From positions 1 through 22,256 of the IMG/VR virus record IMGVR_UViG_3300030105_002190: 22,256 nt of DNA, one strand, 5' to 3'. Positions 415 through 22,256 of the stretch are shown piece by piece. How positions within the stretch are numbered: the stretch's first letter is position 1; each line of letters opens with the position of its first letter. This DNA is from a virus. The notes below the pieces were generated by a model that saw only the letters and a program-made list of their open reading frames with translations, did no database searches and was not told the DNA's origin. Made by a program: the position numbers and the translations under genes.

Positions 415-3400
415 TTATCTTGTTTTTCTTGTTTTTCTTGTTTTTCTTTTTTTCTTTTGGCCTTTTGATTTAGTACTTTCTTTTATAGCATCCATCTTTT
501 TGTTTTCAAGATCAAGGTTATATTGACTCCAACCTAAAAACAATAAAGTTCTTTCCCAAGCAGCGTGCTCATTGCTTAAACCTTGCCTTACGTTTTGTGT
601 TTTATTATACAACCTGTTCAGTGGTGCGTTAGTAAAAGCCTCTATATAGTTTGTTACCGCCGACCATTGAGGGTTGTCAATATCAAAAGTTTCCATTTCT
701 TTTATAACTTTTTTGTTATAATTAAGGGTTTTTTCAGCGTTTGATATTTTTCTAGCTTTAATACCTACTACAGGTGAAAAGTTTAAAGCTTCTATTAAAA
801 CAGCACCCTCATCAGGGTTGTAATCAACATCTCTTTGCCTAGCAAAAGCAATAGCAACATTTTTTAAAGTAGCGACAACAGCGCCAATTATACCACTACC
901 TCTTAACACAGAGTCAATACTACCATTTATTAATCTTTCTTTTTTCTTTAAAAATAAATTATTGTTATCTTCTTCGTCATCATCAAACATCATAGCAAAC
1001 AAAGCTGTTTGTAAAGTATAGAATATTAAATTTTGCACAGCAAAATAATATGTTATTCTAGAAGCGTTAGATATATCACTTTGTAATTGAGTTGTGTTAG
1101 GTTTTGTTATTCTTCTATTTTTTATATCTAAAAAAGCTTTTTTACCTAACCTGTTAAACTGAGACGTAACATTTTGAAAGTTTAATATAATTTTACCAAT
1201 TACAGAAGCTTGTTGCTGTGAAACCATATCAGGTCTTGCAGACTGTTGTGTTGACTGTGTTATGTCTTGAAAATCTGTAAATGCTTTTGCCTCTGCTTCT
1301 TTTTGACTTAAACCTTGTTTTAAATAAGTATTAATTCTATTTCTATAAAAAGTAGCACCACCTGTTGCTATTGCGATATTATCACCAATTTGCGTAGGTA
1401 AAAAACCTAGCTCTAATAATTTAGATATTAAAAACCTACTAGGATTTTTAGACTTACGCATGTCAGCTGCAAGTTCAGCGCCATTAACATCTGTCTGTAT
1501 ACCACCTCTTCTTTGCTTAAGCATGTCTGAGTTAAATATAAAAGCCCAATCAGTCCAGTATTGTTTTTGATTTGCAAAAGCTTTAGCCGCAGCAAATATA
1601 TTATTGTCAGCAAAGTTAATGTAATTAACTATAGACATTTGCTGTAACAAAGCAGATCTTATATTGATAAACATAACAGCTCCAACAGAGCCATTAACCC
1701 AATTCATAAGCGCGTTTACCATTGCGTTTTGGCCAGACGGTCGGTTTGTACCGGTTTTAATTCTATAAAGCATATCTTCTAAAGCTTCTCTAACACCTTT
1801 ACCGTAACCAGCTTCTATTTTGTTTAAATTTTCTGTAGAAAATATTATGTCAGCATTTTCAATAAATTCTTTAAAAAACTGTGCTCTACCAATCCTACCT
1901 GTAGCATCATCTAAATCCATACGAATATCTCCAGAATCCCAACCTTCTGTAGGGTTAACATAATTGTCCTGTTTTGATATAACGTTTAAAACCTCTGCGT
2001 AAGCCTTTAAGTCAGCATCATTTTCAACTAAATCACTTAACTTTACTTGGTCTGTTGGAGTTAACCCAGGTATTTTATAACCATGTTTATTCCATAAATA
2101 TACTCTTATAGCATCTTGATATGTAAAATCACCATCTGGAGTTTTCTTTGTAAGTTTCTTTTTAACATCTTTAAACTGTTTGTTTAACGCTTTAAAATCG
2201 TTAGCAACTGATTGTCTTGCTGTATCATATTCTTTATTAGCTCTATTTAATGGTCTAACCAAAGCTTGTTCAAAAAAGTCTCTATGAGCATTACCTTTTT
2301 TACCTTTACCTATAAAGTTGTACAACAATCCTACAAAATCTTCGTGAGATGGTGGTACAAAAAACCTAAACTTACCTTTACTAGCTCCACGTTTTCTAGC
2401 TTTAATAGCTGAAAATCTTTTTTCAGACTCAATACCAATAACGTTTTCTAGTATATCATTAAATTGATCGTTTATTGATTTACTAAACTGAATTTTTGCT
2501 TGTTGAACTTTTGATTTAACATCAAATTGCTCTAACATATTTTTTACAGCTTGAACGTTTTGTAAAGCATCATCAGCAAAATAAAAATCATTATAACCCT
2601 CACTTACTTTATCAGCCATCCAAAGCGCTTTAGCTTCTGCTGTAGAGTTTGCTAAACCAGTAATATTTTTTATAGGTATATTTAAACCATTAGCTTTTAA
2701 AAAGTCGTGTATTGCTTTAGCCGCTTGTGGTGGTCTTGCTGTTAATACAAACATATTCTCTGGTCCAAACTTACCTTGTAATTTTAAAGCTTTTTGAAAC
2801 AATGGTGCTAACTTACCTTTTACAACTTTATTAAACTCAGAAAAATCAAATGTATATCCTTGTCCTAATAAATCTTGATATGTATTTGCAAATTCTTCAG
2901 CATTTAATGTTCCAATAACACCATCAGGCGTTGTATATTTAACTAAAGATTTAGTTGTAGCCAATGTGTCATCAAAATCTAACACCGTAATACCTTTAGC
3001 CGGATTTACCGTCCTAGAACCGCTTATGGCATTGTTAAGTTTTTTTACCTTTTTAACGTTTTTATTATACTTAACTTTTTTAATTTGTTGTATTTCTTTT
3101 TTAGTTACATCTCCAGTTAAAAAATCTACAATTAATTCGTTTTGTCTAGTAATATCGTTTAAACCAGTTTCAGGGTCTTTAATACCATCAACGCCAAAAT
3201 ATTGTGCAATAGTCATTTTAACTCCAGCTAAAGAATACGCGTTTGGATCAATACCAGCAATAGCAAGTCTTACAAGAGAAGCATATCCATTTGGTATGTT
3301 TAAATCACCACTTATTAATCTAGGAACAACTTTATCGTAATAAACGTCGGGCATACTTTTTTCTAACCCCGCGGCTAAAAGCATGTCATTATGAACTTCT

Positions 3401-6400
3401 AACAATGCTCCTTGCATATAAGATTTACCAACAACCTGCCAAACTGTATCAAGATTTCCATTAAAAGCCCCTAACAATAAAGCTTTACCAATTAAATTCT
3501 GAGGATCTGTATGTTCTTCAGTAATTTTTTGATTAACAATAGCGTTGTTATTTGCGTTTACAGGATAAAAACTAAAAGGAGCTAAAATTCTAGTAAAAGT
3601 ATTTTGATGTTTACTAGTATCTAAAAGTATTTCTGCAAACATCCAAAGGTCATTTTTTGCTTCAGGAGACTTGTTTAAATGAATCTCTATGCCTTTAAAG
3701 ATATCAAAAAGTATTCCAAGTTTTTTATTTTCACTTAAACTATCATAATCCTTTAAGTAATTTTTATCAAAACCACCTCTATTAGGATCACCTTTCTTTT
3801 TATTTGTATATGAATCTCTTTTACCAACTTGCTCAACGTCTGTTTTTGGAAACAATTGATCAAAGTATTTAACATCTAAAAAGAAACCTCCAGATGAGTT
3901 GTTACCGCCAGTAGTAGTGCTTCTTATTAAACTTCTAAATTCTGGATTTTGATTAAGAAAAGTTTGTATAACTCTAATACCACCTTCTTCTATGGTTTCT
4001 CCAGTTTTTTTACCGTTAATAACCAAATCTTGTTTCAAATCTCTTGATCTAAAAGTTTTGCTTCCTTCACTATCTGTTCTACCGTCTGGGTATAAAATAT
4101 CAGTTTTTTTAGCTAACTCAACGTTTATAAGCTTTGCAATAGCTTCTATAGGTAATTCATAATAATTTTTAAGAGTAGTTTTACTAAAAGCAATTTTACT
4201 TTGCCCAGCTGTAATGTCAGCTGTTTGTTGTTTTAAAGCTTGTTTCTTTTCTACAGGTGCAGCTTCTGTTTTAGCTTGTAAACCTCTTTGAGCACCAGAT
4301 AAAGCCACACCAATTGAAAGTGTTTTTGCAGCGCCTTTTAATAACTGACCAATATCTCTGCTATACACATTTGGCTGAAGTTTAGGTGTTATACCTAAAT
4401 CTTGTTTAAACTTTTCAATAGTTTCAGGCGTTGGATTTCTAAACTCTGATTTTAATATTTTTACGTCTGGTTGAGTTGTTAGACCTAAACTTCTACCACT
4501 AGGAGATGTTTCAGCTTCTTTTTTAATTTTAGCTTCTTTGCTAATGGCTTTTGGATCAACATAATCTTCGTAAAAATAATCCATTATTAAACCTTTTAAA
4601 CCAATAGCTCTACCGTAAACATCTCTTGATACGTCTATATTTTCACCAACTTTATTTATATCAGCTGTTTTTCTAGCAACGTTTAGTAATGGTAATGTTT
4701 TAATAAACTTACTAGTATTTTCTCCTGCACTAAAAACTCTTTGTATACTTTGAGCTTCAGCGGGTATTGGCATACCTTCTTCATATACTGTAACAGCAGT
4801 TAAATTAGCACCACCCTCCATAATTTTTTTAACAGGTATATCAAATATAAGTTCTCCAACTTTACCAGCATATTTTTCTATCACTTGTTTAAAAGTATCA
4901 CCTTCTTTTACTTTTACTAAAGACTTTATTTTATTTGCAATCTTAGACACAATAGCAAAATCAGTAAGCATGTTTATTTTTTGTACAAAAGTATCTTGTG
5001 TGTTTGTTTTATCGTTTACATCACCAGCAAGATCTCTTACACTAGGATCATCAAGTTTAACACCGTCACGTATTGCAAGTATTTTAGCCTCTTCAAATAT
5101 AGTGTCGTTTTTAGGAGCTATGTTATTGTAAACATGAGTTGAAAACTTACCTTTTTTAGGATCATAATTTTTTAATATACTTGGGAAATAAACAGAAATA
5201 GCAGATATAACATTTTTTCTAGGTATATCACCTTTTTCTTCACTGTATTTTAAAGCATCTATAGATAAGGCTTCATATTGATTTATAAGTTCTTTTTCAG
5301 CTTCATCAATACTTTTTCTAGAACCTCTCTTCTTCTTTACTATTTTAGCTAACTCTTCTGGAGTTTTTTTAGAAGGTGTTTTAGAGGTTTGTATTTTACC
5401 TTCTGTTTTTCTTTTTAAACTTCTTTTGCCAAAATCAATAATACTTTTTCTTAACTTACCAGCAACTCTATCGCTGTCGTATGCTTTTAAAAAGTTATAC
5501 AAAGCTCTACCATCCTCAAATTCTAAATTTACAAAACCTTTTGGTTTAAAAAAGTTTTTAAATAAATTTATTAATTTTCTAAATAAACTTTCTTCAAACT
5601 TAATAGCTGGCTGGCCTTCAGATGGGTTTAAAGCATCAACAAAAACATTTATATATTCTTCAGCGTACTCTTCTAATTCTTTTTCACTACCATCTTCATT
5701 GTATCTATACGCATCGTCTATCCTTTCTTGAATAATTTTAAATTGAGAATTTTCTTTAATAATCTCAATAAATTGCTTAACAAGTTTTAAACCGTCTTTA
5801 GTAATATTAACCTCAACATCTTTATTATTGGAATCTTTTATTGTTCTTAAAGGACCATTAAGTGTTGACCACATTATACCATGTAATAGTTCATGCGCAC
5901 CAACATTAACAGCTTCTGTGGTTTTTGCAACTTCCTTATTAATATAAAATATTTTTGTATTTGGATCAAAAAACCCGTCCATGCCCTTAGTACCTTTAAT
6001 ACCAAGTTTTTTCATTAAAGCATCAAACTTTTTTTCTGTCTTTATAACCTTAGTATCTCCACCAATTTCTTTACCATACTTTTCAACAAAAGCAATTGAT
6101 TTTTGAAGTTTAGCATCAGTGTCTTTTAACCTTAATTCTTTTTTGTCTTTAAACGTAGATTTGGCAACTGTCTTTGGAACTAAAAATCCTTTTTCACCAA
6201 ATTTATAATTAGCTCTTTTTAATTCAAAATACTTTAAAGCGTCTTTTAGTTGTTGTATTTTTTTAGGATCTTTCTTTTCGTTTAACTCTTCTTTTCTTAA
6301 CTCTTGCTCGATATCAAATTGTGATCTGTTATTTATAAAATCAACTATTCTCATCGCCTTAGCGTTACTCATAACAACTCTACTTTGAGATTCTTTTGGA

Positions 6401-9400
6401 GCATATTTACCCATGATTTTATAAGCTTCTTTTTCTATATTAAAATTATTTTTAACTTTAATATTTAATTGTTTACCTTTTTTAAAATCACCATTATTTT
6501 TATGTGCTCTAATTCTTTTTAAAAACTCTTCTTTTGTATTGTAAGTTTTACCATCAATAGAATACTCAGGAGTTAGTAACATTTCCTGATCATATTGTTT
6601 TGTTAATTTAATTAATTCTTTTTTAAGTTCTTGTTTTTTCTTATCACCTATTTCTTTATTTTTAAGATCTTGTTTTATTTTTTTAATTTTTCTATCAATT
6701 TTCCAAATACTTCTTAAACTATTATCAAATTCAATAGTATTTTTCATGTTACCTATTTGAGAGTTTACGTTATCAAGCTCTTTTTGGTATTCTTCAGACA
6801 GGTTTGTATCTGTTTCATCCATTTTTGCTTGAATAGCATTTCTTTGAGTTATTAGTTTAATCAACTCGTCTGCTCTCTCCTCTGTAACTTTAACACTACC
6901 ATCTTCATTAAACAACAAGTCATCAATATCACCACTTATTAATATATAATTATCAAGTCTTTTTTTTATGTCTTCATATTTTTCAATAGCCAAATCCCCA
7001 GTAGAAAGTTGATTATCCATTTCTTCTATAAATGCGTCATAATTTTCACTAGCAACTCTTAAAACACCGCTTTGATCTGTTTTAGTTAAATTCCCACTTA
7101 AACCTCTCATTGCTAAAACCGATAAAGATGTAAGTACAAAAGTTTCTTTTATCTCATTATACTCTGGTAGTTTAAAATCTGTTTGAAAAGTATTATTATA
7201 AGACATGTCTATAGCTCCCTTGGAAAACAATTGTAAATATTCTTCTAATAATTCTTTAGGGACATCTGCAAAAGCCGCTTTTAAAGCAATTAATCTTTCA
7301 TTTTCTAAAGTTTTTAATAATGATTTTGGATCTTTTAATCCTCTTTTAATACTACTTACACTTCTTTTAATCATTTTAAAATCAGGATTTACTACTTCTA
7401 TAGCCGCCTCTACAAATGTAGTTTTAATAGAATAATCCATAGCATCTTCTGCAGTAAAGTTTCCATCTATAGCAGCAAATGCTTGACTCATATTTTGTGG
7501 TAACAATACTGGTAAACTTCCAACACCAACACTGGAAAGACTAACTGATTTTTTATAAAAATCACTAGCCCCCTTTAAGTTCTTTGGTTGTACACCCATT
7601 TTTAACAAACCTTTTTTTGTTAAATTACCAACCCCAGTTAATGTTTTGTAAGAAACTCTACTACCTCTAGACATCATAAACATATCACCCACTGTTTTTA
7701 CAACACTAGGTAAAAGTTTAGATAAATTCCACTCCCCTGTTTCGGGATCTACAAACGATGTTGAAGACGTAGGAATATTTGGTAAATCAACTTCAATAGC
7801 CTTGTTAAACAGAAAAGCTTCGGTATGATATCTTTCTTTATTTTCAGGATCTAAACCAGCCATAAGATTTGCTTTCGCAGTCGCAAGAACAGTCGCGGTT
7901 CCACCAAAAAAATCAACAACAGTATTTACCGCTGTTGGAACAGACTCTGTAACACCTCCAAGCCCCCACTTTTCATACCACTCATCAGTTGCTTTTTGAT
8001 CTTCAAATTTTTCATTTAATTTTTTACCAAATTCAGTTTTATCAAGAAATTTCATTTGTAAAGTTTTATTAAAAGATGCCTCATCTGATAACTTAAAATA
8101 ACCATCTAAAAGTTTTCTTGTGTGTGGACTTAATACTATATTAGCAGATTTAAGTAAGCTTTCATAGTTTTTATCAAGATTTAAAACATCTATTCTTAGA
8201 TCATTAAAAGTATTAACATTATCTTTGTTTTGCTCTAAGCTTCCGTTATTAAACTTGCTATACATCTCTTCAAGTTCTTTTATTTTAGTATCTCTTTCTT
8301 GTATTAAAACCTTTGTATCGTTTTCAAATAAGTTTAAATCATCAACAAGTTCTGGTATTCCATTTTTTTTGTATATATCTAAATCATTATTAAATTTACT
8401 ATGTTTGTAATTTATATAAGCACTAATTACATTAGATTTAAACCTTTGTTCATACGCTGGTTCTTCACCTTCTTTTTCATATCTTCTTTTTCTTCCACCT
8501 AAACTATGCTTTTTAACAAGTTTCTCTTTTTCTCTATAATGTTCAGCTTCATTACTTCCAAGATACCAAATTGCAAATCTTGCAGCTTCATCACCGCTTA
8601 AGTCTTCTCCAAATAAGGTTTTTAAATCATCATGAGACATACCAGCAAGTGACCACGCGTCATCCACGCCTGTCATTGAGTAAACTTCCCCATCATCCCC
8701 AATGTATTTTTTAGGATCTAGCTCAACTTCTTTTAACTTTTCTGGATCTATTATATTGCTTGGGATAAAATCAGTGTTGAATTCGTTTTTCCAAGTTTCG
8801 TAAGCTTTATTAACCGCGGATCTTTCTTTTTTTTTCCTCGCGCGGATATCCCTATCCCATCTTTCATTAACTTTTGTTTGATCTCCAACAGGCGTCATGT
8901 TAAGCACCATTCCAACCGCGTTCTTAGCTATACTAAAAGCATCCGTAACGTCTTGCCACTCTATGTCACCCTTGAAAGTAAGAGCGGTATAACCTATTGG
9001 GGTTGGTGTCATTTTCACTTTATCCCATACAACATCCATAAAACCTTCAGGATCTTTTCCAGCTTCAGGGTTTGCGGTTTTCCATTGTTCAAGAGTTACT
9101 TGCTGTCTTTCTTCATTTTTAATTTTTTGTTGCGCTAAAAAATCTTCATACGACAAACTTTCATCTACATCTTTAGTTAGCGGATCGTCAACTTTTTCTG
9201 AAGAAGAATACTTATTGGTTTCAAACTCAGGGAATTTACTATTTATAATACGCCAATCTCCACCATGTTTAGGATCATTTGCTGTCAAAACATATTCTTG
9301 CAATACAAACGGATCTATATCAGCTAATTCAGGAAATTTACTATTTATAACAGAGTAATCTCCGTTATATTCAGGGTCATTTGCTGTTAGTACATATTCT

Positions 9401-9426
9401 TGTAATACAAATTCTAATTCTTCCAT
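415..9426 (-). CDS. Giant polyvalent virion/ejection protein (3003 aa)
   Basis: This one uninterrupted frame fills about 40% of the window. It starts three bases after the upstream stop (TAA-AAT-ATG). Visible parts in order: a duplicated 28-residue motif (6-33 and 40-67); weakly hydrophobic segments near 505-530; a Lys/Glu-rich, probably coiled-coil stretch around 900-945; an HELLH zinc-peptidase-like motif at 1178-1182; a segment with NYDPKKGKFSTHVYNNI near 1422, faintly like sigma-factor helices; an Ala-rich hydrophobic segment at 1698-1734; an EHTDP motif at 1971-1975; a HAD phosphatase domain at about 2140-2310; a long helical C-terminal region with hydrophobic segments near 2790-2812 and 2840-2860 flanking an acidic DDDEED run; and a basic KTR tail. 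It follows two smaller ejection-type genes, the place of T7 gp16, so it is probably carried in the capsid and ejected with the DNA. A tape-measure role is unlikely, because the sequence is multidomain with enzyme motifs. Its enzymatic role is not proven. Confidence 0.85.
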   Translation of the reverse strand: MEELEFVLQEYVLTANDPEYNGDYSVINSKFPELADIDPFVLQEYVLTANDPKHGGDWRIINSKFPEFETNKYSSSEKVDDPLTKDVDESLSYEDFLAQQKIKNEERQQVTLEQWKTANPEAGKDPEGFMDVVWDKVKMTPTPIGYTALTFKGDIEWQDVTDAFSIAKNAVGMVLNMTPVGDQTKVNERWDRDIRARKKKERSAVNKAYETWKNEFNTDFIPSNIIDPEKLKEVELDPKKYIGDDGEVYSMTGVDDAWSLAGMSHDDLKTLFGEDLSGDEAARFAIWYLGSNEAEHYREKEKLVKKHSLGGRKRRYEKEGEEPAYEQRFKSNVISAYINYKHSKFNNDLDIYKKNGIPELVDDLNLFENDTKVLIQERDTKIKELEEMYSKFNNGSLEQNKDNVNTFNDLRIDVLNLDKNYESLLKSANIVLSPHTRKLLDGYFKLSDEASFNKTLQMKFLDKTEFGKKLNEKFEDQKATDEWYEKWGLGGVTESVPTAVNTVVDFFGGTATVLATAKANLMAGLDPENKERYHTEAFLFNKAIEVDLPNIPTSSTSFVDPETGEWNLSKLLPSVVKTVGDMFMMSRGSRVSYKTLTGVGNLTKKGLLKMGVQPKNLKGASDFYKKSVSLSSVGVGSLPVLLPQNMSQAFAAIDGNFTAEDAMDYSIKTTFVEAAIEVVNPDFKMIKRSVSSIKRGLKDPKSLLKTLENERLIALKAAFADVPKELLEEYLQLFSKGAIDMSYNNTFQTDFKLPEYNEIKETFVLTSLSVLAMRGLSGNLTKTDQSGVLRVASENYDAFIEEMDNQLSTGDLAIEKYEDIKKRLDNYILISGDIDDLLFNEDGSVKVTEERADELIKLITQRNAIQAKMDETDTNLSEEYQKELDNVNSQIGNMKNTIEFDNSLRSIWKIDRKIKKIKQDLKNKEIGDKKKQELKKELIKLTKQYDQEMLLTPEYSIDGKTYNTKEEFLKRIRAHKNNGDFKKGKQLNIKVKNNFNIEKEAYKIMGKYAPKESQSRVVMSNAKAMRIVDFINNRSQFDIEQELRKEELNEKKDPKKIQQLKDALKYFELKRANYKFGEKGFLVPKTVAKSTFKDKKELRLKDTDAKLQKSIAFVEKYGKEIGGDTKVIKTEKKFDALMKKLGIKGTKGMDGFFDPNTKIFYINKEVAKTTEAVNVGAHELLHGIMWSTLNGPLRTIKDSNNKDVEVNITKDGLKLVKQFIEIIKENSQFKIIQERIDDAYRYNEDGSEKELEEYAEEYINVFVDALNPSEGQPAIKFEESLFRKLINLFKNFFKPKGFVNLEFEDGRALYNFLKAYDSDRVAGKLRKSIIDFGKRSLKRKTEGKIQTSKTPSKKTPEELAKIVKKKRGSRKSIDEAEKELINQYEALSIDALKYSEEKGDIPRKNVISAISVYFPSILKNYDPKKGKFSTHVYNNIAPKNDTIFEEAKILAIRDGVKLDDPSVRDLAGDVNDKTNTQDTFVQKINMLTDFAIVSKIANKIKSLVKVKEGDTFKQVIEKYAGKVGELIFDIPVKKIMEGGANLTAVTVYEEGMPIPAEAQSIQRVFSAGENTSKFIKTLPLLNVARKTADINKVGENIDVSRDVYGRAIGLKGLIMDYFYEDYVDPKAISKEAKIKKEAETSPSGRSLGLTTQPDVKILKSEFRNPTPETIEKFKQDLGITPKLQPNVYSRDIGQLLKGAAKTLSIGVALSGAQRGLQAKTEAAPVEKKQALKQQTADITAGQSKIAFSKTTLKNYYELPIEAIAKLINVELAKKTDILYPDGRTDSEGSKTFRSRDLKQDLVINGKKTGETIEEGGIRVIQTFLNQNPEFRSLIRSTTTGGNNSSGGFFLDVKYFDQLFPKTDVEQVGKRDSYTNKKKGDPNRGGFDKNYLKDYDSLSENKKLGILFDIFKGIEIHLNKSPEAKNDLWMFAEILLDTSKHQNTFTRILAPFSFYPVNANNNAIVNQKITEEHTDPQNLIGKALLLGAFNGNLDTVWQVVGKSYMQGALLEVHNDMLLAAGLEKSMPDVYYDKVVPRLISGDLNIPNGYASLVRLAIAGIDPNAYSLAGVKMTIAQYFGVDGIKDPETGLNDITRQNELIVDFLTGDVTKKEIQQIKKVKYNKNVKKVKKLNNAISGSRTVNPAKGITVLDFDDTLATTKSLVKYTTPDGVIGTLNAEEFANTYQDLLGQGYTFDFSEFNKVVKGKLAPLFQKALKLQGKFGPENMFVLTARPPQAAKAIHDFLKANGLNIPIKNITGLANSTAEAKALWMADKVSEGYNDFYFADDALQNVQAVKNMLEQFDVKSKVQQAKIQFSKSINDQFNDILENVIGIESEKRFSAIKARKRGASKGKFRFFVPPSHEDFVGLLYNFIGKGKKGNAHRDFFEQALVRPLNRANKEYDTARQSVANDFKALNKQFKDVKKKLTKKTPDGDFTYQDAIRVYLWNKHGYKIPGLTPTDQVKLSDLVENDADLKAYAEVLNVISKQDNYVNPTEGWDSGDIRMDLDDATGRIGRAQFFKEFIENADIIFSTENLNKIEAGYGKGVREALEDMLYRIKTGTNRPSGQNAMVNALMNWVNGSVGAVMFINIRSALLQQMSIVNYINFADNNIFAAAKAFANQKQYWTDWAFIFNSDMLKQRRGGIQTDVNGAELAADMRKSKNPSRFLISKLLELGFLPTQIGDNIAIATGGATFYRNRINTYLKQGLSQKEAEAKAFTDFQDITQSTQQSARPDMVSQQQASVIGKIILNFQNVTSQFNRLGKKAFLDIKNRRITKPNTTQLQSDISNASRITYYFAVQNLIFYTLQTALFAMMFDDDEEDNNNLFLKKKERLINGSIDSVLRGSGIIGAVVATLKNVAIAFARQRDVDYNPDEGAVLIEALNFSPVVGIKARKISNAEKTLNYNKKVIKEMETFDIDNPQWSAVTNYIEAFTNAPLNRLYNKTQNVRQGLSNEHAAWERTLLFLGWSQYNLDLENKKMDAIKESTKSKGQKKKRKTRKTRKTR
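418..444 (-). repeat. 9-bp tandem repeat coding Lys-Thr-Arg x3
   Basis: Three exact copies of tcttgtttt (plus strand) immediately precede the stop codon of the giant gene. They encode a C-terminal KTRKTRKTR tail after a KKKR stretch. The repeat keeps the frame, so slippage would add or remove whole KTR units. The very basic tail could bind DNA or a negatively charged partner during packaging or ejection (inference). Confidence 0.85.
2497..3009 (-). other. HAD-superfamily phosphatase domain inside the giant protein
   Basis: Residues about 2140-2310 carry the full HAD motif set. Motif I is LDFDDTLA, with nucleophile D2150 and acid/base D2152. Motif II is FVLTARPP, with T2229. A motif III lysine sits in STAEAKALWM (K2266). 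Motif IV is FYFADDALQN, with metal-binding D2285 and D2286. A cap-like insertion of about 70 residues separates motifs I and II. Known HAD enzymes with this layout are mostly phosphatases, including nucleotidases and polynucleotide 3'-phosphatases. The substrate here cannot be told from the sequence. Because every catalytic residue is kept, an active enzyme is likely. Confidence 0.85.
5881..5895 (-). other. HELLH zinc-metallopeptidase-like motif in the giant protein
   Basis: Residues 1178-1182 read HELLH within VGAHELLHGIMW, the HExxH metal-binding and catalytic signature in a helix of typical hydrophobic pattern. About 75 residues downstream an acidic helix (ELEEYAEEYINVF) could provide a third glutamate ligand, as in gluzincins. 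The region just before the motif (FDPNTKIFYINKEV) resembles the edge strand that precedes the active-site helix in many such enzymes. The motif is short and can occur by chance, so the peptidase call is moderate. Cell-wall cleavage and self-processing are both possible roles. Confidence 0.55.
9226..9411 (-). repeat. Tandem duplication at the N-terminus of the giant protein
   Basis: Residues 6-33 and 40-67 are near copies. Both contain FVLQEYVLTANDP, then a Gly-Asp pair followed by Tyr or Trp, then INSKFPE. The spacing is 34 residues (102 nt). The unit looks like a short helix plus loop. It may serve as a docking or packaging tag at the free N-terminus (inference). The copies are at 9328-9411 and 9226-9309. 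Confidence 0.9.
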
Positions 9427-14881: not shown

Positions 14882-17800
14882 TTAATCATCATCATTAAGA
14901 TCTTGAATTGTTAGGTTATAAACACAGCTACCATCATCAATAGTTGCAATATCACTATAATTTAACGCATTTGGATCAGTACAACCGTAATTACTACCAA
15001 CATAGACACAACTACCATCATCAATGGTTGCCAATGGATCGTAGTTAGACGCACTAGGGTCTGTACAACCTTCAATTTTATCTAATGTTGCTGTATCATC
15101 ATAAACACAAGATCCATCATTAACTGTAGCTTGATTATTATAATTAAGAGCAAGTGGATCAGTACATCCGGGTATTGGTGTTGGTGTGTATAAACAACTC
15201 CCATCATCAACGGTAGCTTGATTATTATAATTTAACGCCAAAGGATCCATACATCCATAAACCGAAGGTATATATAAACAACTTCCATCATCTGTGTTCG
15301 CTAGAGGATCATAATTAAGAGCATCTACATCTGTGCATCCTAAAACTCCATCTTCAACATATACCGCGTCATCTATAGTTATTTCTTTAGCGTTACCTAT
15401 ACCTTGAAAAGAAAACTGTTCTGTTTTTACATCTAAAGTTTTTGCAACATCTTCACCTTTTATGAAATTAAACCACTTTCCTTCTTTTTCAATAAACTCA
15501 TTAACAACACCTTGTTGTTTGTCTGTTTTTATATATGACGAATACCAACCTTTTTTTGAAGTTAAATTATAATAACCCGTTCTAACATCAGTTATCTCTT
15601 GCTTAACATGTGATTGTGTTCCTTCATAACCTAAAGTTTTATAATTTTTTATAATACCTGGCTCGTCATTTAATAATACCGTTACAGACGATGGTGTAAA
15701 CTGTTGATAAAAAGTGTTTCTAGATATATTGTTACCCAGAAAATCTTGTTCTATATGATGTTTATACAAATCACCATCTTTAAACGTATAATAATCATTA
15801 GTCATACTCACGCCAATTTCAGGAATAAAAGATTTACGACTAACCCATCCTTTAACTTTTTCATCAAATGAAATTGTCGCTTGCGTTGAAGTTAAAGTTA
15901 CGTTATATTCATTTTTTTTACCATCGTAACTACCAATTATTTTTGTATTAAACTTTAAATTATCAGAAAAATAATCTGTCATACCGTTTTTTGATATAGG
16001 TGTTAAACCATCCATAGACAATCTAAGTACAGCACCTCTCTGTTTGTCTGTAAAATAAACTCTATAGTTTTCTACTGCAAATGATTCAGGATTTTGTGAT
16101 ATTCCATATTCACCAGAAAAAGGATCTGATTGTCCTAAAACCCTATTTGTCGATACTAGATTTATATTACCATCAGCATTATACAAAGCATCTTTATTTG
16201 CGTATATTCTTATTACTTTGTCTTCACAAAAAGCTAATAAATCACTATCTCTACTGTATAGTTTTTGTATACTACCATATGTAGGGTTTAAATCTTTTGT
16301 AATTTTTTCAGCAGCTATAAATTGATTCAGATTATTTACTCCACTTGTAGAGTTATATAAACCAGAATATATTAATCCGCTTTTTCTTGTTTCTTGTTCA
16401 TAAACAAAATCTATAGTAGAAGAAACCACAGCCCCTTTATCAACAGTTGTTTGATTAAAGTCATCTCTCAATCTGTTTGATTCAACTCCATTGTTAAAAG
16501 AGTAACAATTAAACCAATCTAATTCCTGCGTAGTTCCGTGTAGTGAAATATCAAAACACTCGCTGGCCTCATAGTAAATGTCTAAATCTACATTTTCTTT
16601 TGGCTCTGTTTCCCAAATAGCTGGATTATCACTAATCAACTGATCTTCTTCACCCTCACTAATATCTAAAAATAATATTGATCTAGCCGTATCATTATCA
16701 GCCCCATGACCATCCCTTGTTCCGTTGCGCGTCGGTGCATCTGTATCTATAAAGTTAGTGTAAGCGGTTGTTCCGTCAGTATGTAGAAAATGACTATTTA
16801 ATAACGGATCGGCTGGAGCGTATACAGGCTGTTGTGATATGGTGTTAATAGGAGCATCTTCTTGATGGAGTGCAAAAGGTATAATATAGGTTACTCTTCT
16901 ATTAAAAGACTCTGTAAACTCATTCCACGCGTCTTGTAGTGTGGCTCTATAACCATTAGCAACACCAAAATGTAAAAAAGAAGAATGACTTGGCACTATA
17001 TTTGTATCTTCCAGTATATCCATTGCATCCCTAACAGTTGTAAAAGGCATATAATTAAATCTTTTTTCCATTGAAACAGTGCCGTTAATTATATACTTTG
17101 TTTCTCTATTTTGATCACCAACAAATTTAAACAATTTATTTTGTTTAAGTTGCGATACTATAGAGTTCTGGTCTTCGTGTTCAGGGTTTGAACTAGACCC
17201 TATTGCAAACAATTTTGGATCTTGTATAATATCTTCGTTTAATCTACCTCTATGATGACTTCCAAGATCAACATCTAATAAAGCGTCGCCTTGCCCACCA
17301 TATTCAATAAAAGTACTGTCAGGATCAGGTTCTATTTTAGAAAATGATAATTCCATATACCATTGATCTACACCACCAGGACCTCCACCTGGAACTTTAT
17401 ATATACCCTTACCATACCCACTTGGCGAGTTGTGGGAATCATTAACATCTCCACTTGTAAAGCTACCAGCATAATAAACTTGATCAACAAACCACTCACT
17501 ACTTCTCTCGTTGTTGTTAAAATTTAAAATATTACTAACCCAAGCGCTTCTATTGTCAGAACTCCAATTACCAGTAGTACCAGTATTAGCAAGATCAACT
17601 AAACTTACTAAGCTGTTAGTATAGGTGTCAGCACCTGTATCAGATATATAAAAACAATTAACAACACCAACAGACGTATACGATGTTGCATCAATAACGC
17701 CTTTTAAAACATACCGCTCTGTTGAAGCGTCGTTAAGAATTTTCACAAAAAACTTACCATCAAATTTTGGCTGATCTTTTACCACATTTTTGTAAACCCT

Positions 17801-20077
17801 TAAAGTTAAATCAGAGTTTAAATTAGAAGCTGCAAAAGAAGTTATATTAGCATAGTTATTATAAATCCAACTATCAGATTCTTTAATTTTATTTTTTAAA
17901 GTTATGTTGTAGTGTGGTGCTTTAAATTCTAAAAAAGCAATTTCATAAAAATCAGAAGATATACCAGCAGCCGTATCTCTAAACTTTATACTTAATGTTT
18001 CTGTGAAATTATCAATACTTGGTCCATTGTCTGTTTTCCAAACCTCTTCACTAATTTCAAAATACTTATCATTTATCAAAGGCATGTCACCTGTAAATAA
18101 ATTTGCTATTGTACCATTACCATTAGAACTAGCAACAAAAGCTGTATTAGTTTTTACTTCAACTGGAGCTTCATTTTCTATGGCTATTATTTTATATTTT
18201 AAATTTTCTTCAACCTGAACGTTGGCATCTAATTGTTTTTTTAATATTAAAAATGTTTCTTCATCTACTTTGTTTCTTTCAGAAGAAGGAAAAGAAAGCC
18301 ATATATTACCATCTTGAGCTTTATACACTCTATCCATAGCTAAATTATAGTATTCATTAGAAGTTTCTTTAACAAATATTTTATATGATTTAGCCCAATC
18401 AGGTGCAGATGTTATAGTTGTAAATTGTAAAGCGTTAGAGTTTTGAGCTTCGTCTTTTGGGATTTTAAAAGAAGATATTGTATTGCTAAAAATAGGTGTT
18501 TGTCTACCATAATCGTCTAAATAAGAAATACCTAGTTGGTAGTTTCTTAAAGATTTTAAAGATTTGTTTGGAATTCCATCAGCAACAGTAACACCTGTTC
18601 TAGGCGTATAACTAGAATTTATTATTGGTTTTTTTGTTAAATTATAGTTTTGAACATAATTACCATACACTATTCTATTACCAGTAATTTCTTGTGCTAA
18701 GGCTTTTCTTGGCACGTTATCATAAGGTCTTAGTAGTTGATTTGAAGGAAGTAGAGCGTATATAAGATCTGAATTTATTTGATATGCATTATCATCCCAG
18801 CTATTATTAGGGTTTCTAAAATCATTATATTTTAAACTCTCTACAATATATACATTTGGTGAGTTTGATTCTTTGTATAATAAATCTATTTGAATAACAT
18901 CTTCTAAAATATCTGTTTCAACAAAGTTTTTTAGTTTTAATTCTTTTAATTTGTTTTGCATACCTAGGTTGTATGCTTTTTTAGTTTCATAATCAAAAAC
19001 AGAAGGTTTAAACGCTATTTCAGAAAAAGGTGCAAAAGTAGAATATTCACCATCTTGATACTTGTATCGATAACTAAATCTAGCAAATTGTTTTTCAAAA
19101 AAATCTTCTTGTTTTGCTTTTTTAAATACGTTCCAGTTTTCTTGACCAAGAACAACGTAACCATCTACAATTTCAGCGCGATAAGACATAGGTGGAAACG
19201 TACTACCGCTAACGCTACCATCTGGTGTTCCACTAAGATCTGCTAGTATTTTTAATTTAATACTATAATCTTTTGGTAAACTACCAGCAGAAGCTTGGTC
19301 TAATAATAAAATTTCATCTCCAACCACAAGTGCTTCGCCTGCTGTACTGCTAAACGTACCTGTTTGTATACCTATAAAAAGCCCCGCACCAACTAAAGGT
19401 ATAACAGACCCTGATGCCATTGGTAGTAAGTTACCAAAAAGATCTGTAAAAGTAGCGTCCGAAAGCACGGCTGTCGTATTTACTTCTACACCCATATTTA
19501 ACGTAAGCTTTGTTTTAGGGGCTTTTTTTATAACGGTAATATGCTCTTCTCTAATTTTAATACCATCACTTGCTGTTATATTTCTATCGGGAACTATTAA
19601 AAGAGTGTGACCTGGATTATCGTGTGAACCTTGTTTACAAAGATCTATATTAATTTTTTTCGGTTCTGTAACGTTATCAGTCCAAAATAATAAATTATCA
19701 ATAATATTTATACCTGTTATTAGATTGTCAGGGCTAAATTTTAAAACAGCATCAACAGTACCAACTTTAGTGTCTACAAGTACTGGTGTAATTACATTAT
19801 CTTTGTACTCTAGTATTGAATCTTTAACGCTATTTGTTATAAACCAATATAAAGCATTGTTTTTTTCATCAGCTATTGCACTAACACATGTTGAATTTGG
19901 TAGTACCGTTGACATTTTAAGGTTACCCAATAAATTTTGAACAGCCCCAACATCAGATCCTTCTGAGGTTGATACCTGTATATTCATTGCATCTCTATAT
20001 TGACCATTAGGTACTAATCTCTCATCAAGGTCTTTATTCATTTTACCTTGACCAAAAACATGTTTAATCTCCGGCAT
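14882..20077 (-). CDS. Tail nozzle/muzzle-like structural protein with C-terminal GCTDP repeats (1731 aa)
   Basis: The N-terminus (MPEIKHVFGQGKMNKDLDER, then LVPNGQYRDAMNIQV) and the following strands (ALYWFITNS, LLFWTDNVTEPKKI) resemble large phage tail stabilisation or tubular proteins of the T7 gp12/crAss muzzle kind. These are beta-propeller proteins at the tail tip. Further blade-like strands (YRYKYQDGEYSTFAPFSEIA near 350; LYSRDSDLLAFCEDKVIRIY near 1275; YRVYFTDKQRGAVLRLSMDG near 1340) support a propeller-like fold. Residues 1580-1720 hold five 23-residue GCTDP repeats, followed by an acidic end (NLTIQDLNDDD). The start lies three nt after the upstream TAG. At 1731 aa it is far longer than T7 gp12 (about 800 aa), so it must carry added domains. 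It probably forms the distal tail and presents the repeats outwards. Confidence 0.8.
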   Translation of the reverse strand: MPEIKHVFGQGKMNKDLDERLVPNGQYRDAMNIQVSTSEGSDVGAVQNLLGNLKMSTVLPNSTCVSAIADEKNNALYWFITNSVKDSILEYKDNVITPVLVDTKVGTVDAVLKFSPDNLITGINIIDNLLFWTDNVTEPKKINIDLCKQGSHDNPGHTLLIVPDRNITASDGIKIREEHITVIKKAPKTKLTLNMGVEVNTTAVLSDATFTDLFGNLLPMASGSVIPLVGAGLFIGIQTGTFSSTAGEALVVGDEILLLDQASAGSLPKDYSIKLKILADLSGTPDGSVSGSTFPPMSYRAEIVDGYVVLGQENWNVFKKAKQEDFFEKQFARFSYRYKYQDGEYSTFAPFSEIAFKPSVFDYETKKAYNLGMQNKLKELKLKNFVETDILEDVIQIDLLYKESNSPNVYIVESLKYNDFRNPNNSWDDNAYQINSDLIYALLPSNQLLRPYDNVPRKALAQEITGNRIVYGNYVQNYNLTKKPIINSSYTPRTGVTVADGIPNKSLKSLRNYQLGISYLDDYGRQTPIFSNTISSFKIPKDEAQNSNALQFTTITSAPDWAKSYKIFVKETSNEYYNLAMDRVYKAQDGNIWLSFPSSERNKVDEETFLILKKQLDANVQVEENLKYKIIAIENEAPVEVKTNTAFVASSNGNGTIANLFTGDMPLINDKYFEISEEVWKTDNGPSIDNFTETLSIKFRDTAAGISSDFYEIAFLEFKAPHYNITLKNKIKESDSWIYNNYANITSFAASNLNSDLTLRVYKNVVKDQPKFDGKFFVKILNDASTERYVLKGVIDATSYTSVGVVNCFYISDTGADTYTNSLVSLVDLANTGTTGNWSSDNRSAWVSNILNFNNNERSSEWFVDQVYYAGSFTSGDVNDSHNSPSGYGKGIYKVPGGGPGGVDQWYMELSFSKIEPDPDSTFIEYGGQGDALLDVDLGSHHRGRLNEDIIQDPKLFAIGSSSNPEHEDQNSIVSQLKQNKLFKFVGDQNRETKYIINGTVSMEKRFNYMPFTTVRDAMDILEDTNIVPSHSSFLHFGVANGYRATLQDAWNEFTESFNRRVTYIIPFALHQEDAPINTISQQPVYAPADPLLNSHFLHTDGTTAYTNFIDTDAPTRNGTRDGHGADNDTARSILFLDISEGEEDQLISDNPAIWETEPKENVDLDIYYEASECFDISLHGTTQELDWFNCYSFNNGVESNRLRDDFNQTTVDKGAVVSSTIDFVYEQETRKSGLIYSGLYNSTSGVNNLNQFIAAEKITKDLNPTYGSIQKLYSRDSDLLAFCEDKVIRIYANKDALYNADGNINLVSTNRVLGQSDPFSGEYGISQNPESFAVENYRVYFTDKQRGAVLRLSMDGLTPISKNGMTDYFSDNLKFNTKIIGSYDGKKNEYNVTLTSTQATISFDEKVKGWVSRKSFIPEIGVSMTNDYYTFKDGDLYKHHIEQDFLGNNISRNTFYQQFTPSSVTVLLNDEPGIIKNYKTLGYEGTQSHVKQEITDVRTGYYNLTSKKGWYSSYIKTDKQQGVVNEFIEKEGKWFNFIKGEDVAKTLDVKTEQFSFQGIGNAKEITIDDAVYVEDGVLGCTDVDALNYDPLANTDDGSCLYIPSVYGCMDPLALNYNNQATVDDGSCLYTPTPIPGCTDPLALNYNNQATVNDGSCVYDDTATLDKIEGCTDPSASNYDPLATIDDGSCVYVGSNYGCTDPNALNYSDIATIDDGSCVYNLTIQDLNDDD
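14918..15340 (-). repeat. Array of five 23-residue GCTDP...DDGSC repeats
   Basis: Five 69-nt units lie in frame at 15272-15340, 15188-15256, 15101-15169, 15002-15070 and 14918-14986. Spacers are 5, 6, 10 and 5 codons. Each unit has GC(T/M)D at the start, ALNY or ASNY in the middle, an AT or AN step, (D/N)DGSC and a final (L/V)Y. Units 2 and 3 are nearly identical as protein, but many of their base differences are synonymous. Two Cys per unit suggest a disulfide, and the Asp/Asn pattern is compatible with calcium binding. Similar repeats occur in secreted Bacteroidetes proteins and in marine phage proteins. Confidence 0.95.
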
Positions 20078-20080
20078 ATG

Positions 20081-21601
20081 CTAGTGTTTTATTTGCTTAG
20101 ATTTACCTCTAAGTATTTGAGTTAATTCTTCTAACTTTAAACTTGACAATCTTAGTTTAGCTGTTCTTACTGCTGCAAACTTATCTTTTTGAAATCTACG
20201 AACTATATATTCTTGCACGTTAGCTCTTGTGGACATTACCGCGTATGCTATACACTTGTACATTGCTTCTTCGGCGAACTTATGTATTCGCATTTCAGAA
20301 TCGGTACCAAGACTATCACTTAAATAATCTAGCACTACAGTTTTACCAGATATAGCGGAACCAAAATGAATGTTACCACTATTATCATCTATATAATAAG
20401 AACCATTCGCTTGCGCATGTTGTGGGTCTAAACCATATCTACTTCCTTGATTAGGCCAATACGTATCGTCTTCATAATCATTAGTTGTTGTTGTAGATGT
20501 GTGCCCTCTATACTTGTTCCAAGAATTTGACTCGCTATTTAAATCAACAAATATAAGTTCTGTTCCATATAATTGAGAATTAACAAGCACAATAGGATAA
20601 CCTGGATTAACTGCAGGTTGATTTACATCATCATCCATTAATTTCCACTTTTGATATTGTGGGTTTGTTATATGCAGCGCTATACCTGGATATGTTTCAG
20701 CAGTTGTAATACCATCAACAGAAGTTACCGTTGTATTGTTTGGTATACCAGGACCAAAAACAGACATACCAACTTCTATACCACCAGGATCTGTAAATAG
20801 TTGTATTATCATACCGTCATTAGCAGCGTTACCATTTTCGTTTATAGTCTCGCCGTAGTTTGCGCTTTGAAGATTATTAGTTGTAACACCACTAATCGTT
20901 TTAGTTACGCCTTCTAAATCAAATCTGACTTCTTTTTTATATTGCGGGAGTGGTGTTTTTGATACAAAGTTTTGAGTTGAAGCTATACGATTCCCAAAAG
21001 AATCATAAGATCTTGTAATTCCATACTCTATATATTTATCATAATATTGATGTTCTGCTGTTGGATCTACAACAAAAGCGCCATCTACAATTGTTGCGTC
21101 TTTAATATTAACCTTCCAAGTGTTAGTTTCAAATTTTAAATCACCAGTTGTTTCTTGTTGATAAGATACTGGATTAGAAGTTTTAGATGTAGGATATATA
21201 ATTCTTTTTATACCAGCAGCATCAACCCAAGATACTTTTGTATAATGAACATAATCCTGAGGTAATGGTATTTGTAAAGATGGTGGAACCTCTATTTCAA
21301 ATGATTTTACGGATTTTAAAGTATCAAAACTTAATTCCGCAAGAGATCTTTGCGCGTGAAAAGCAATATCAGTTCTACTTGCCTTGCTTATTATTTTACC
21401 TTCACCAACGTACGCAACAATAAAAGAATTTATAATATCTTCTAAAGATACAAATTGATAATTACCATAACTAGCATTACCAGTTCTTTGAACTCCATCA
21501 GCACCACTATAGTATTGTTTTGAATCTAAACCTAAATCTATAAGTTCACCCTCACCAGTAATTGCGTTTTGTTTGTTATATGCTGCGTCTAATAATCCCA
21601 T
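20081..21601 (-). CDS. Head-tail connector / tail ring-like structural protein (506 aa)
   Basis: The N-terminal half contains SLEDIINSFIVAYVGEGKII, then DIAFHAQRSLAELSFDTLKS and VPPSLQIPLPQDYVHYTKVS. This helix-then-beta layout is typical of gp11/ring-like adaptor proteins of short-tailed phages. A module at 261-316 has IEVGMSVFGPGIPNNTTVTSV, shared with the 431-aa protein. The C-terminus is a basic helical segment (MYKCIAYAVMSTRANVQEYI, then VRRFQKDKFAAVRTAKLRLS). Its place between the connector-like gene at the right edge and the large nozzle-like gene supports a neck or ring role. It starts three nt after the upstream stop (TAA-TAT-ATG). No signal peptide or enzyme motif is seen. The exact equivalent in T7 or crAss phages is not certain. 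Confidence 0.75.
   Translation of the reverse strand: MGLLDAAYNKQNAITGEGELIDLGLDSKQYYSGADGVQRTGNASYGNYQFVSLEDIINSFIVAYVGEGKIISKASRTDIAFHAQRSLAELSFDTLKSVKSFEIEVPPSLQIPLPQDYVHYTKVSWVDAAGIKRIIYPTSKTSNPVSYQQETTGDLKFETNTWKVNIKDATIVDGAFVVDPTAEHQYYDKYIEYGITRSYDSFGNRIASTQNFVSKTPLPQYKKEVRFDLEGVTKTISGVTTNNLQSANYGETINENGNAANDGMIIQLFTDPGGIEVGMSVFGPGIPNNTTVTSVDGITTAETYPGIALHITNPQYQKWKLMDDDVNQPAVNPGYPIVLVNSQLYGTELIFVDLNSESNSWNKYRGHTSTTTTNDYEDDTYWPNQGSRYGLDPQHAQANGSYYIDDNSGNIHFGSAISGKTVVLDYLSDSLGTDSEMRIHKFAEEAMYKCIAYAVMSTRANVQEYIVRRFQKDKFAAVRTAKLRLSSLKLEELTQILRGKSKQIKH
20655..20820 (-). repeat. GMxVxGxGI module inserted in the 506-aa protein
   Basis: Residues about 261-316 include IEVGMSVFGPGIPNNTTVTSV and end near IALHITNPQYQ. 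The same pattern of Gly-Met, Val, Gly, Gly-Ile, then Thr-Val or Thr-Ile occurs in copy 1 of the 431-aa protein. It seems to interrupt the connector domain and is probably a surface-exposed insertion. Confidence 0.65.
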
Positions 21602-21604
21602 ATA

Positions 21605-22256
21605 TTATGATTTTTCTTGTTGAATGTCATTTGCTTCTTTTTGTCCAGCGGCTTGAGTTAAATTATAGTCTTTCATAGCTATACCTGCTAAGGATAGTAT
21701 TTTAATAATTAAATTATTCTCTTCAGAAGGATGTAATTGAAAATCCTCTGTTTTTCCAGGATCATATAAGGCGTTTTCACCAATAACATTATAACCCCAA
21801 CTAGCTGTTTTAGGTTTTCTTATATAGTGGCAATGCACATTGTTTGTAAAAGTTGGATAAACCCTATATCCCCTAGGCATATCAATAAACACTGCTCTTT
21901 TTAAAGTAGGTTTTGCAAGTGGAGAAAGTTTGATTTTTAAATACTCTTTATGAGTAATTTGTTCTATTTCACCATAACCAGTTTCTAACGTACCTAATCT
22001 ATACAATTCTCTTGGTTTTTGGTAATAAGGAGAATGATAATATAATAGTTTAATATTTTTAAATATCGCTATCTTTTCCTCTAATAAATCTAACATGTCT
22101 GCGTATTCAGTATTATTACCAGGAACTCTATTAAATTGATTTGTATCATAAAAATATTGTTCAAATATATCCATTTGAGCTTGATCAGCAAATAAGTTAA
22201 ACTCTTGAGGCGTTATATAACCCCTTTGCTCTTTATTAGCAATAGCTAAAACTTTT
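21605..22256 (-). CDS. Head-to-tail/virion structural protein, 5' part missing
   Basis: The frame is open to the right edge, giving 217 visible codons. It passes through an internal ATG at 22174 that could be mistaken for the start. The upstream in-frame residues (KVLAIANKEQRGYITPQEFN, then LFADQAQ) lead smoothly into MDIFEQYFYD as one continuous amphipathic helix region. The true start is therefore beyond the window. The rest has mixed helices and strands (TGYGEIEQITHKEYLKIKLS; VHCHYIRKPKTASWGY) and ends with a helical segment (LIIKILSLAGIAMKDYNLTQ) and a polar tail. No enzyme motif, signal peptide or membrane span is seen. Being directly upstream of the ring-like 506-aa gene, it is probably a neck or tail-hub component. 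I do not recognise the exact family. Confidence 0.75.
   Translation of the reverse strand, partial: KVLAIANKEQRGYITPQEFNLFADQAQMDIFEQYFYDTNQFNRVPGNNTEYADMLDLLEEKIAIFKNIKLLYYHSPYYQKPRELYRLGTLETGYGEIEQITHKEYLKIKLSPLAKPTLKRAVFIDMPRGYRVYPTFTNNVHCHYIRKPKTASWGYNVIGENALYDPGKTEDFQLHPSEENNLIIKILSLAGIAMKDYNLTQAAGQKEANDIQQEKS

Follow-up and report, generated by a model that had tools for sequence, protein, structure and literature searches.

What would a HAD phosphatase do inside a giant phage virion protein, is its active site intact, and on what would it act? These questions are raised by a 3003-residue ORF (P0001; positions 415–9426, minus strand) in the DNA analysed here, bases 1–22256 of a 29,036-bp virus record; this whole stretch of 22,256 nucleotides is referred to in the following as the window. 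The ORF probably encodes an ejected virion protein of the large polyvalent type.

Genomic context of the giant ORF

All genes described here lie on the minus strand. Two virion structural genes with matches to phrog_14543 and phrog_13977 (20081–22255) come first in the gene order, followed by the gene for a 1731-residue muzzle (tail-tip) protein (14882–20077; crAss_MUZ PF25731, 1e-12; phrog_14478, 7e-148), several more genes and, last, the 3003-residue ORF. The muzzle gene places the ORF in the virion cluster, and order and sequence suggest to us that the remaining ORFs of the record are terminase, portal, scaffold-like and capsid genes. A matching gene order is found in two cultured flavophages, phi38:1 (Pervagoviridae) and elemo. 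The positional equivalents of the ORF, Cellulophaga phage phi38:1 gp101 (1691 residues) and Flavobacterium phage elemo gp18 (3694 residues), also follow the muzzle gene, are very large and are both annotated as structural protein. Judged by gene order and profile matches, the ORF terminates a virion gene cluster of the crAss/Pervagoviridae type.

Scans of the whole ORF with Pfam, PHROG and NCBIfam gave no match. No HAD was found in gp101 or gp18, and a profile comparison between these proteins and the core of the window protein was not significant. When the C-terminal part, the N-terminal part and the HAD consensus were searched against cultured phages by tblastn, no match appeared even at E ≤ 10, which was surprising and to which we give little weight. 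Two uncharacterised proteins of uncultured viruses in UniProt, A0A218MMX7 and A0A218MLT5, belong to the same family with 76% and 48% identity, respectively, in a structural alignment; the second is named a kinase by database annotation.

Three further features of the two large proteins were seen. A HELLH motif resembling those of zincin metallopeptidases is found at residues 1178–1182 (5881–5895), in the variable N-terminal half of the protein, with ≈65% coverage among relatives; Pfam gave no match in this region. The segment YDPKKGKFSTHVYNNI (residues ≈1421–1436, 5119–5166) resembles sigma-70 region 2, and a Pfam scan did not find a sigma family. The C-terminus of the muzzle protein (≈14890–15300) has about five cysteine-containing repeats of the form GCTDPxAxNYDPxATxDDGSCxY.

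Probable delivery with the DNA

The original prediction had assumed that the protein is ejected with the DNA at the start of infection. Beyond close relatives, a search of predicted viral structures with the fold of the C-terminal core returned dozens of phage proteins with ≈9–15% identity and E values of about 1e-12 to 1e-5, several of them annotated as large polyvalent (LPD), ART-PolyVal or MuF proteins, and one relative of the window protein (L051) had an LPD14 match. A giant multidomain protein with a polyvalent-type core is what defines a large polyvalent protein, and the core fold matches and the LPD14 match in L051 indicate such a core here; the HELLH motif may be a further likeness. 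In a survey of this class, such proteins were described as being delivered early against host defences (Iyer et al. 2017, PMC5512222), and in a structural study of a crassvirus, large cargo proteins are proposed to exit the particle ahead of the DNA (PMC10172136). The window protein may be likened to those cargo proteins in its size, in the muzzle and ring tail of the phages and in the expected ejection before the DNA; it differs from them in that they form channels and are associated with RNA polymerase. Because of its position in the virion cluster and the core fold matches to large polyvalent proteins, we consider it likely, by analogy, that the 3003-residue protein is delivered with the DNA. 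Synteny with the structural cluster of the flavophages and the same fold matches thus lend indirect support to the assumed ejection.

The protein might instead be a capsid or tail structural component, or one made late, with its HAD domain acting in the producing cell. This would agree with the annotation of the positional equivalents in cultured phages, which are named only as structural protein. We nevertheless consider it very unlikely in view of the giant size of the protein, the HELLH motif, the module slot described below and the core fold matches to polyvalent proteins.

The HAD domain and its active site

The HAD domain comprises residues ≈2140–2311 (2497–3009), as delimited by a HAD profile that spans residues 2143–2311, its motifs and a structural model. 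Motif I is DFDDT (2965–2979), in which D2150 is the predicted nucleophile and D2152 the acid/base, the string DFDDTLA starting at residue 2150. It is followed by a small C1 cap region (2758–2949), which consists of a hairpin, a helix and an FDFSEF segment according to the secondary structure of the model, and which includes the conserved F54 and F57. Motif II is LTAR (2734–2745; T2229 and R2231, LTARPP from residue 2228), motif III is lysine K2266 (2629–2631), and motif IV is the pair D2285 and D2286 (2569–2574; FADDALQN from residue 2283). In the AlphaFold model of an 862-residue part of the protein (pLDDT 81 overall, ≈70–87 in the HAD), the domain has the Rossmannoid HAD order with a small hairpin-and-helix C1 cap, followed by ≈690 residues of helices. 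These correspond to the conserved, all-alpha C-terminal core (residues ≈2330–2990, 457–2439). The domain thus has the sequence and fold features that define the HAD superfamily, namely the DxDxT motif I, T/S in motif II, K in motif III, an acidic motif IV and the Rossmannoid fold. By profile and motif positions, the complete domain that had been predicted was found in full and in place.

Conservation of the domain was assessed in 242 relatives fetched with queries containing the HAD. The spacing between motifs I and II was 78 residues in 155 of the 238 relatives with a measurable domain, and this recurrence shows that the HAD match is not due to chance. Both motif I positions were Asp in every complete domain, whereas profile-based tallies gave 241/242 for the T, R and K and 240/242 for both motif IV aspartates, with the gaps due to truncated contigs or to alignment breaks around inserts. 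Loss of motif I in four relatives (L128, L153, L155 and L127) was only apparent, being caused by an alignment break or by a DFDYT or DLDDT variant.

Since this set had been picked by the HAD itself, two scans were run with the C-terminal core only. These yielded 105 loci with enough upstream sequence, of which 77 had a HAD; all seven catalytic residues were present in 76 of these, the lone exception (L322) being a decayed remnant that lacks both motif I and motif II. Loss of D2150 and D2152 in homologues, named beforehand as the observation that would count against the original prediction, was therefore confined to this remnant, although in 28 of the 105 core relatives the HAD was missing or replaced (seven with a kinase alone, 21 with neither). 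Pairwise comparisons gave a median pN/pS of 0.30 for the HAD; for two stretches of the adjoining core, in which pS was similar, the medians were 0.54 and 0.59. Purifying selection is stronger on the HAD than on the core of its own protein, and no other part of the 3003 residues is as well conserved. Conservation of the catalytic residues and selection on the domain back the claim that catalysis is likely, as far as sequence can speak to it.

High conservation might also be expected if the giant protein needed the HAD fold for its structure, packing or ejection and catalysis were incidental. The residues that are fixed, however, are the catalytic ones, and the domain is dispensable in the core relatives with a kinase alone or with neither domain. 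We regard this as the most improbable of the explanations considered.

An exchangeable slot upstream of the core

Sequence comparison indicates an exchangeable region directly upstream of the core. In most relatives this region holds the HAD alone, without a kinase. A P-loop kinase of ≈200 residues is inserted within the HAD, where the cap hairpin has its tip ≈20 residues past the motif I aspartate, in 37 of 238 relatives, or ≈15% of a sample that was partly picked with a kinase query, so that this and the other kinase and HAD proportions describe the samples and not the population. Thirteen relatives have a 45-residue insert at the same point. In the window, the hairpin tip (2911–2922) carries no insert, and a Pfam scan of the 3003-residue protein did not find a 5'-kinase domain. 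In other relatives the kinase takes the place of the HAD (L122, L123, L131 and L309–L315), and in two (L126 and L130) it lies ≈1000 residues upstream of it. On a tree of 213 leaves (FastTree; long branches flagged), the kinase state changed at least 13 times, which shows that the module has moved often. As far as the sequences show, what is new here is the P-loop kinase nested in a HAD cap, or replacing the HAD, in these relatives.

In four relatives (L332, L334, L335 and L341), the HAD upstream of the core is replaced by a segment of the form KGDIVV...YKVEVKLN, which resembles a PD-(D/E)xK nuclease motif; a Pfam scan of L332 gave no support for such a nuclease. One contig (IMGVR_UViG_3300025131_000066) encodes two different giant kinase–HAD proteins (L115 and L143; 3457 and 3524 residues), ≈12 kb apart and in opposite orientation, and is possibly a chimeric or concatenated assembly. 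Four other relatives (L083, L084, L085 and L086) lie within MAGs labelled Ilumatobacteraceae, Aliivibrio and Woesearchaeota; these contigs are probably viral and were placed in the wrong bin.

Identity of the kinase in relatives

The kinase matched AAA_33 (4e-17) and zeta toxin (2e-13) in Pfam. Among PDB profiles it matched the kinase domain of Clostridium thermocellum Pnkp (7.5e-6; an entry that the fold table names polynucleotide kinase and the sequence table "metallophosphoesterase"), zeta toxin (6e-5) and T4 polynucleotide kinase (1e-3), and among PHROGs the uncharacterised phrog_12810 (9e-22) and phrog_505, the T4 PNK family (7e-13). A fold search with a model of a kinase–HAD composite (pLDDT 88) returned C. 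thermocellum Pnkp at 4e-8 and T4 Pnkp at 3e-7, the latter over 369 columns that span both domains, although the domains are oriented differently. The kinases have an invariant Walker-A lysine and invariant counterparts of T4 D35, R122 and R126 in the alignment (32/32), and L or I at the position of T4 R38. Together, the profile and fold scores and the invariant residues make a polynucleotide kinase the better, though not the only, reading of these sequences and models, with a modest margin over a zeta-type enzyme.

The zeta-type reading is part of the main rival explanation, in which the ejected HAD would have a small-molecule substrate (nucleotide, nucleotide-sugar or defence signal) and the kinase would be a zeta-toxin-like UDP-GlcNAc kinase. 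The zeta-toxin model does fit the kinase well in both Pfam and the PDB profiles, the kinase lacks the T4 R38, and a homologue in BFVD is named UDP-N-acetylglucosamine kinase. Polyvalent proteins with zeta-like kinases fused to MuF are also on record (PMC5512222), and the main text of that survey contains neither "phosphatase" nor "polynucleotide kinase". On the other hand, PNK families ranked above zeta toxin in both PDB searches, by profile and by fold, if by small margins, and AAA_33 did so in Pfam. On the phosphatase side, a pyrimidine-5'-nucleotidase model matched one member only, at E 0.09, and the cap in the AlphaFold model appears small for a classic nucleotidase. We consider a small-molecule substrate quite possible, if less probable than not.

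Affinities of the phosphatase

The closest phage HAD family was phrog_415, whose members are labelled polynucleotide kinase: 40 of 54 members of the window family matched it, at best at 3e-7. The window HAD itself matched at 0.0026, compared with 3e-24 for the phosphatase domain of T4 Pnkp, and because 10 of 14 control genomes also had a match, phrog_415 is partly a general HAD model. The DNA 3'-phosphatase model TIGR01664 matched six members weakly. None of the tested members matched Pfam HAD_PNKP (PF25109) at E ≤ 1, while the positive control, T4 PseT, did so at 3e-59. R176, R246 and D254, which are essential residues of the T4 phosphatase, were without clear counterparts in the HAD in a hand alignment. 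PDB sequence searches with the HAD gave nothing credible, and a PDB fold search with the 862-residue model gave weak matches to mixed HADs, with no PNKP among the best 50. Weighing the phrog_415 link against the missing HAD_PNKP match and the mixed fold matches, we conclude that the sequence is compatible with a HAD that may work like a PNKP phosphatase, yet is not a HAD_PNKP member. The structural comparison with known phosphatases called for in the original prediction was made with two models: the kinase-bearing composite matched Pnkp, but the whole 862-residue model discriminated no substrate.

The best HADs in that fold search were bacterial-effector HADs and the LNS2 domain of Nir2, and the commonest Pfam match was the DUF2608 HAD family (52 of 54 members, best 9e-6). 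Both would fit an ejected HAD that acts on host proteins or lipids, like the effector HAD protein phosphatases or LNS2-type domains. All of these fold matches, however, had E > 0.2, none reaching E < 0.001, DUF2608 is a family without known function, and the kinase that recurs as a partner belongs to a nucleic-acid or nucleotide type; such a target is unlikely.

Five short viral proteins in UniProt (A0A516M7E0, A0A6J5L613, A0A6J5MB30, A0A6J7WD63 and A0A516MB33; 197–283 residues) gave fold matches at 18–29% identity and are apparently, judging from the models, stand-alone versions of the HAD.

Partner ligases were also considered. RNA repair through a partner ligase was discarded, as no RNA ligase scored above the cut-off in 37 long relatives. 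A DNA ligase was present in 28 of 37 records with a HAD and in 4 of 21 without; when only records of 50 kb or more were counted, the figures were 26/33 and 4/9, and the association was too weak to use.

Discussion

Some relatives resemble T4 PseT/Pnkp and C. thermocellum Pnkp in combining a kinase and a HAD phosphatase in one protein. The likeness extends to the DxD, T/S.R, K and DD motifs, to the kinase of the relatives by profile and fold, and to the HAD through phrog_415. The differences are that the window protein has a HAD only, without a HAD_PNKP Pfam match, that the kinase of the relatives is nested in the HAD cap whereas that of PNKP is N-terminal, and that the domain sits in a giant virion protein and not in a stand-alone early enzyme.

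The nesting of an enzyme resembling a DNA/RNA-end kinase in the HAD of relatives, or its replacement of the HAD, suggests an injected enzyme for nucleic-acid ends. Our preferred explanation, held tentatively and at a little less than an even chance, is therefore a virion-delivered, PNKP-like HAD phosphatase in an interchangeable effector slot, acting most likely on nucleic-acid 3' ends. Its solid footing is an active site that is intact and under selection, the virion-cluster context and the recurrent nesting of, or swapping with, a polynucleotide-kinase-like module. Beyond this we infer that the protein is packaged and ejected and that its HAD is catalytic, as well as the 3'-phosphate substrate and the purpose. 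In the proposed mechanism, the HAD would be an active Mg-dependent phosphohydrolase and an exchangeable module of a large virion protein, which would be packed in the particle and ejected along with the DNA. Like the phosphatase half of PNKP, it would remove 3'-phosphates or 2',3'-cyclic phosphates as infection begins, and the cleaned ends of the incoming genome (or of nicked RNA) could then be used by a ligase or polymerase. In relatives whose cap holds the polynucleotide-kinase-like domain, the enzyme would be bifunctional and heal ends with both activities. Among the roles first proposed for the domain, repair of DNA or RNA ends thus gained ground from the nested kinase-like domain and the phrog_415 link, while removal of a cyclic signal and nucleotide salvage gained none.

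More broadly, and more doubtfully, marine crAss-like flavophages may inject, together with their genome, an enzyme that heals ends, namely a PNKP-like phosphatase accompanied in some lineages by a cap-nested polynucleotide kinase, in a slot that also takes other enzymes, and breaks made by host nucleases may be repaired in this way before phage expression. It is in the first minutes, ahead of phage gene expression, that host nucleases pose the greatest threat to the DNA of a phage; if the explanation is true, a virion-carried end phosphatase, or a kinase–phosphatase in relatives, would provide this period with a repair step made in advance. For a PNKP-like enzyme, having the kinase in the cap would be unusual as a domain architecture, and the exchangeable slot is a place to seek other injected enzymes in uncultured marine phages.
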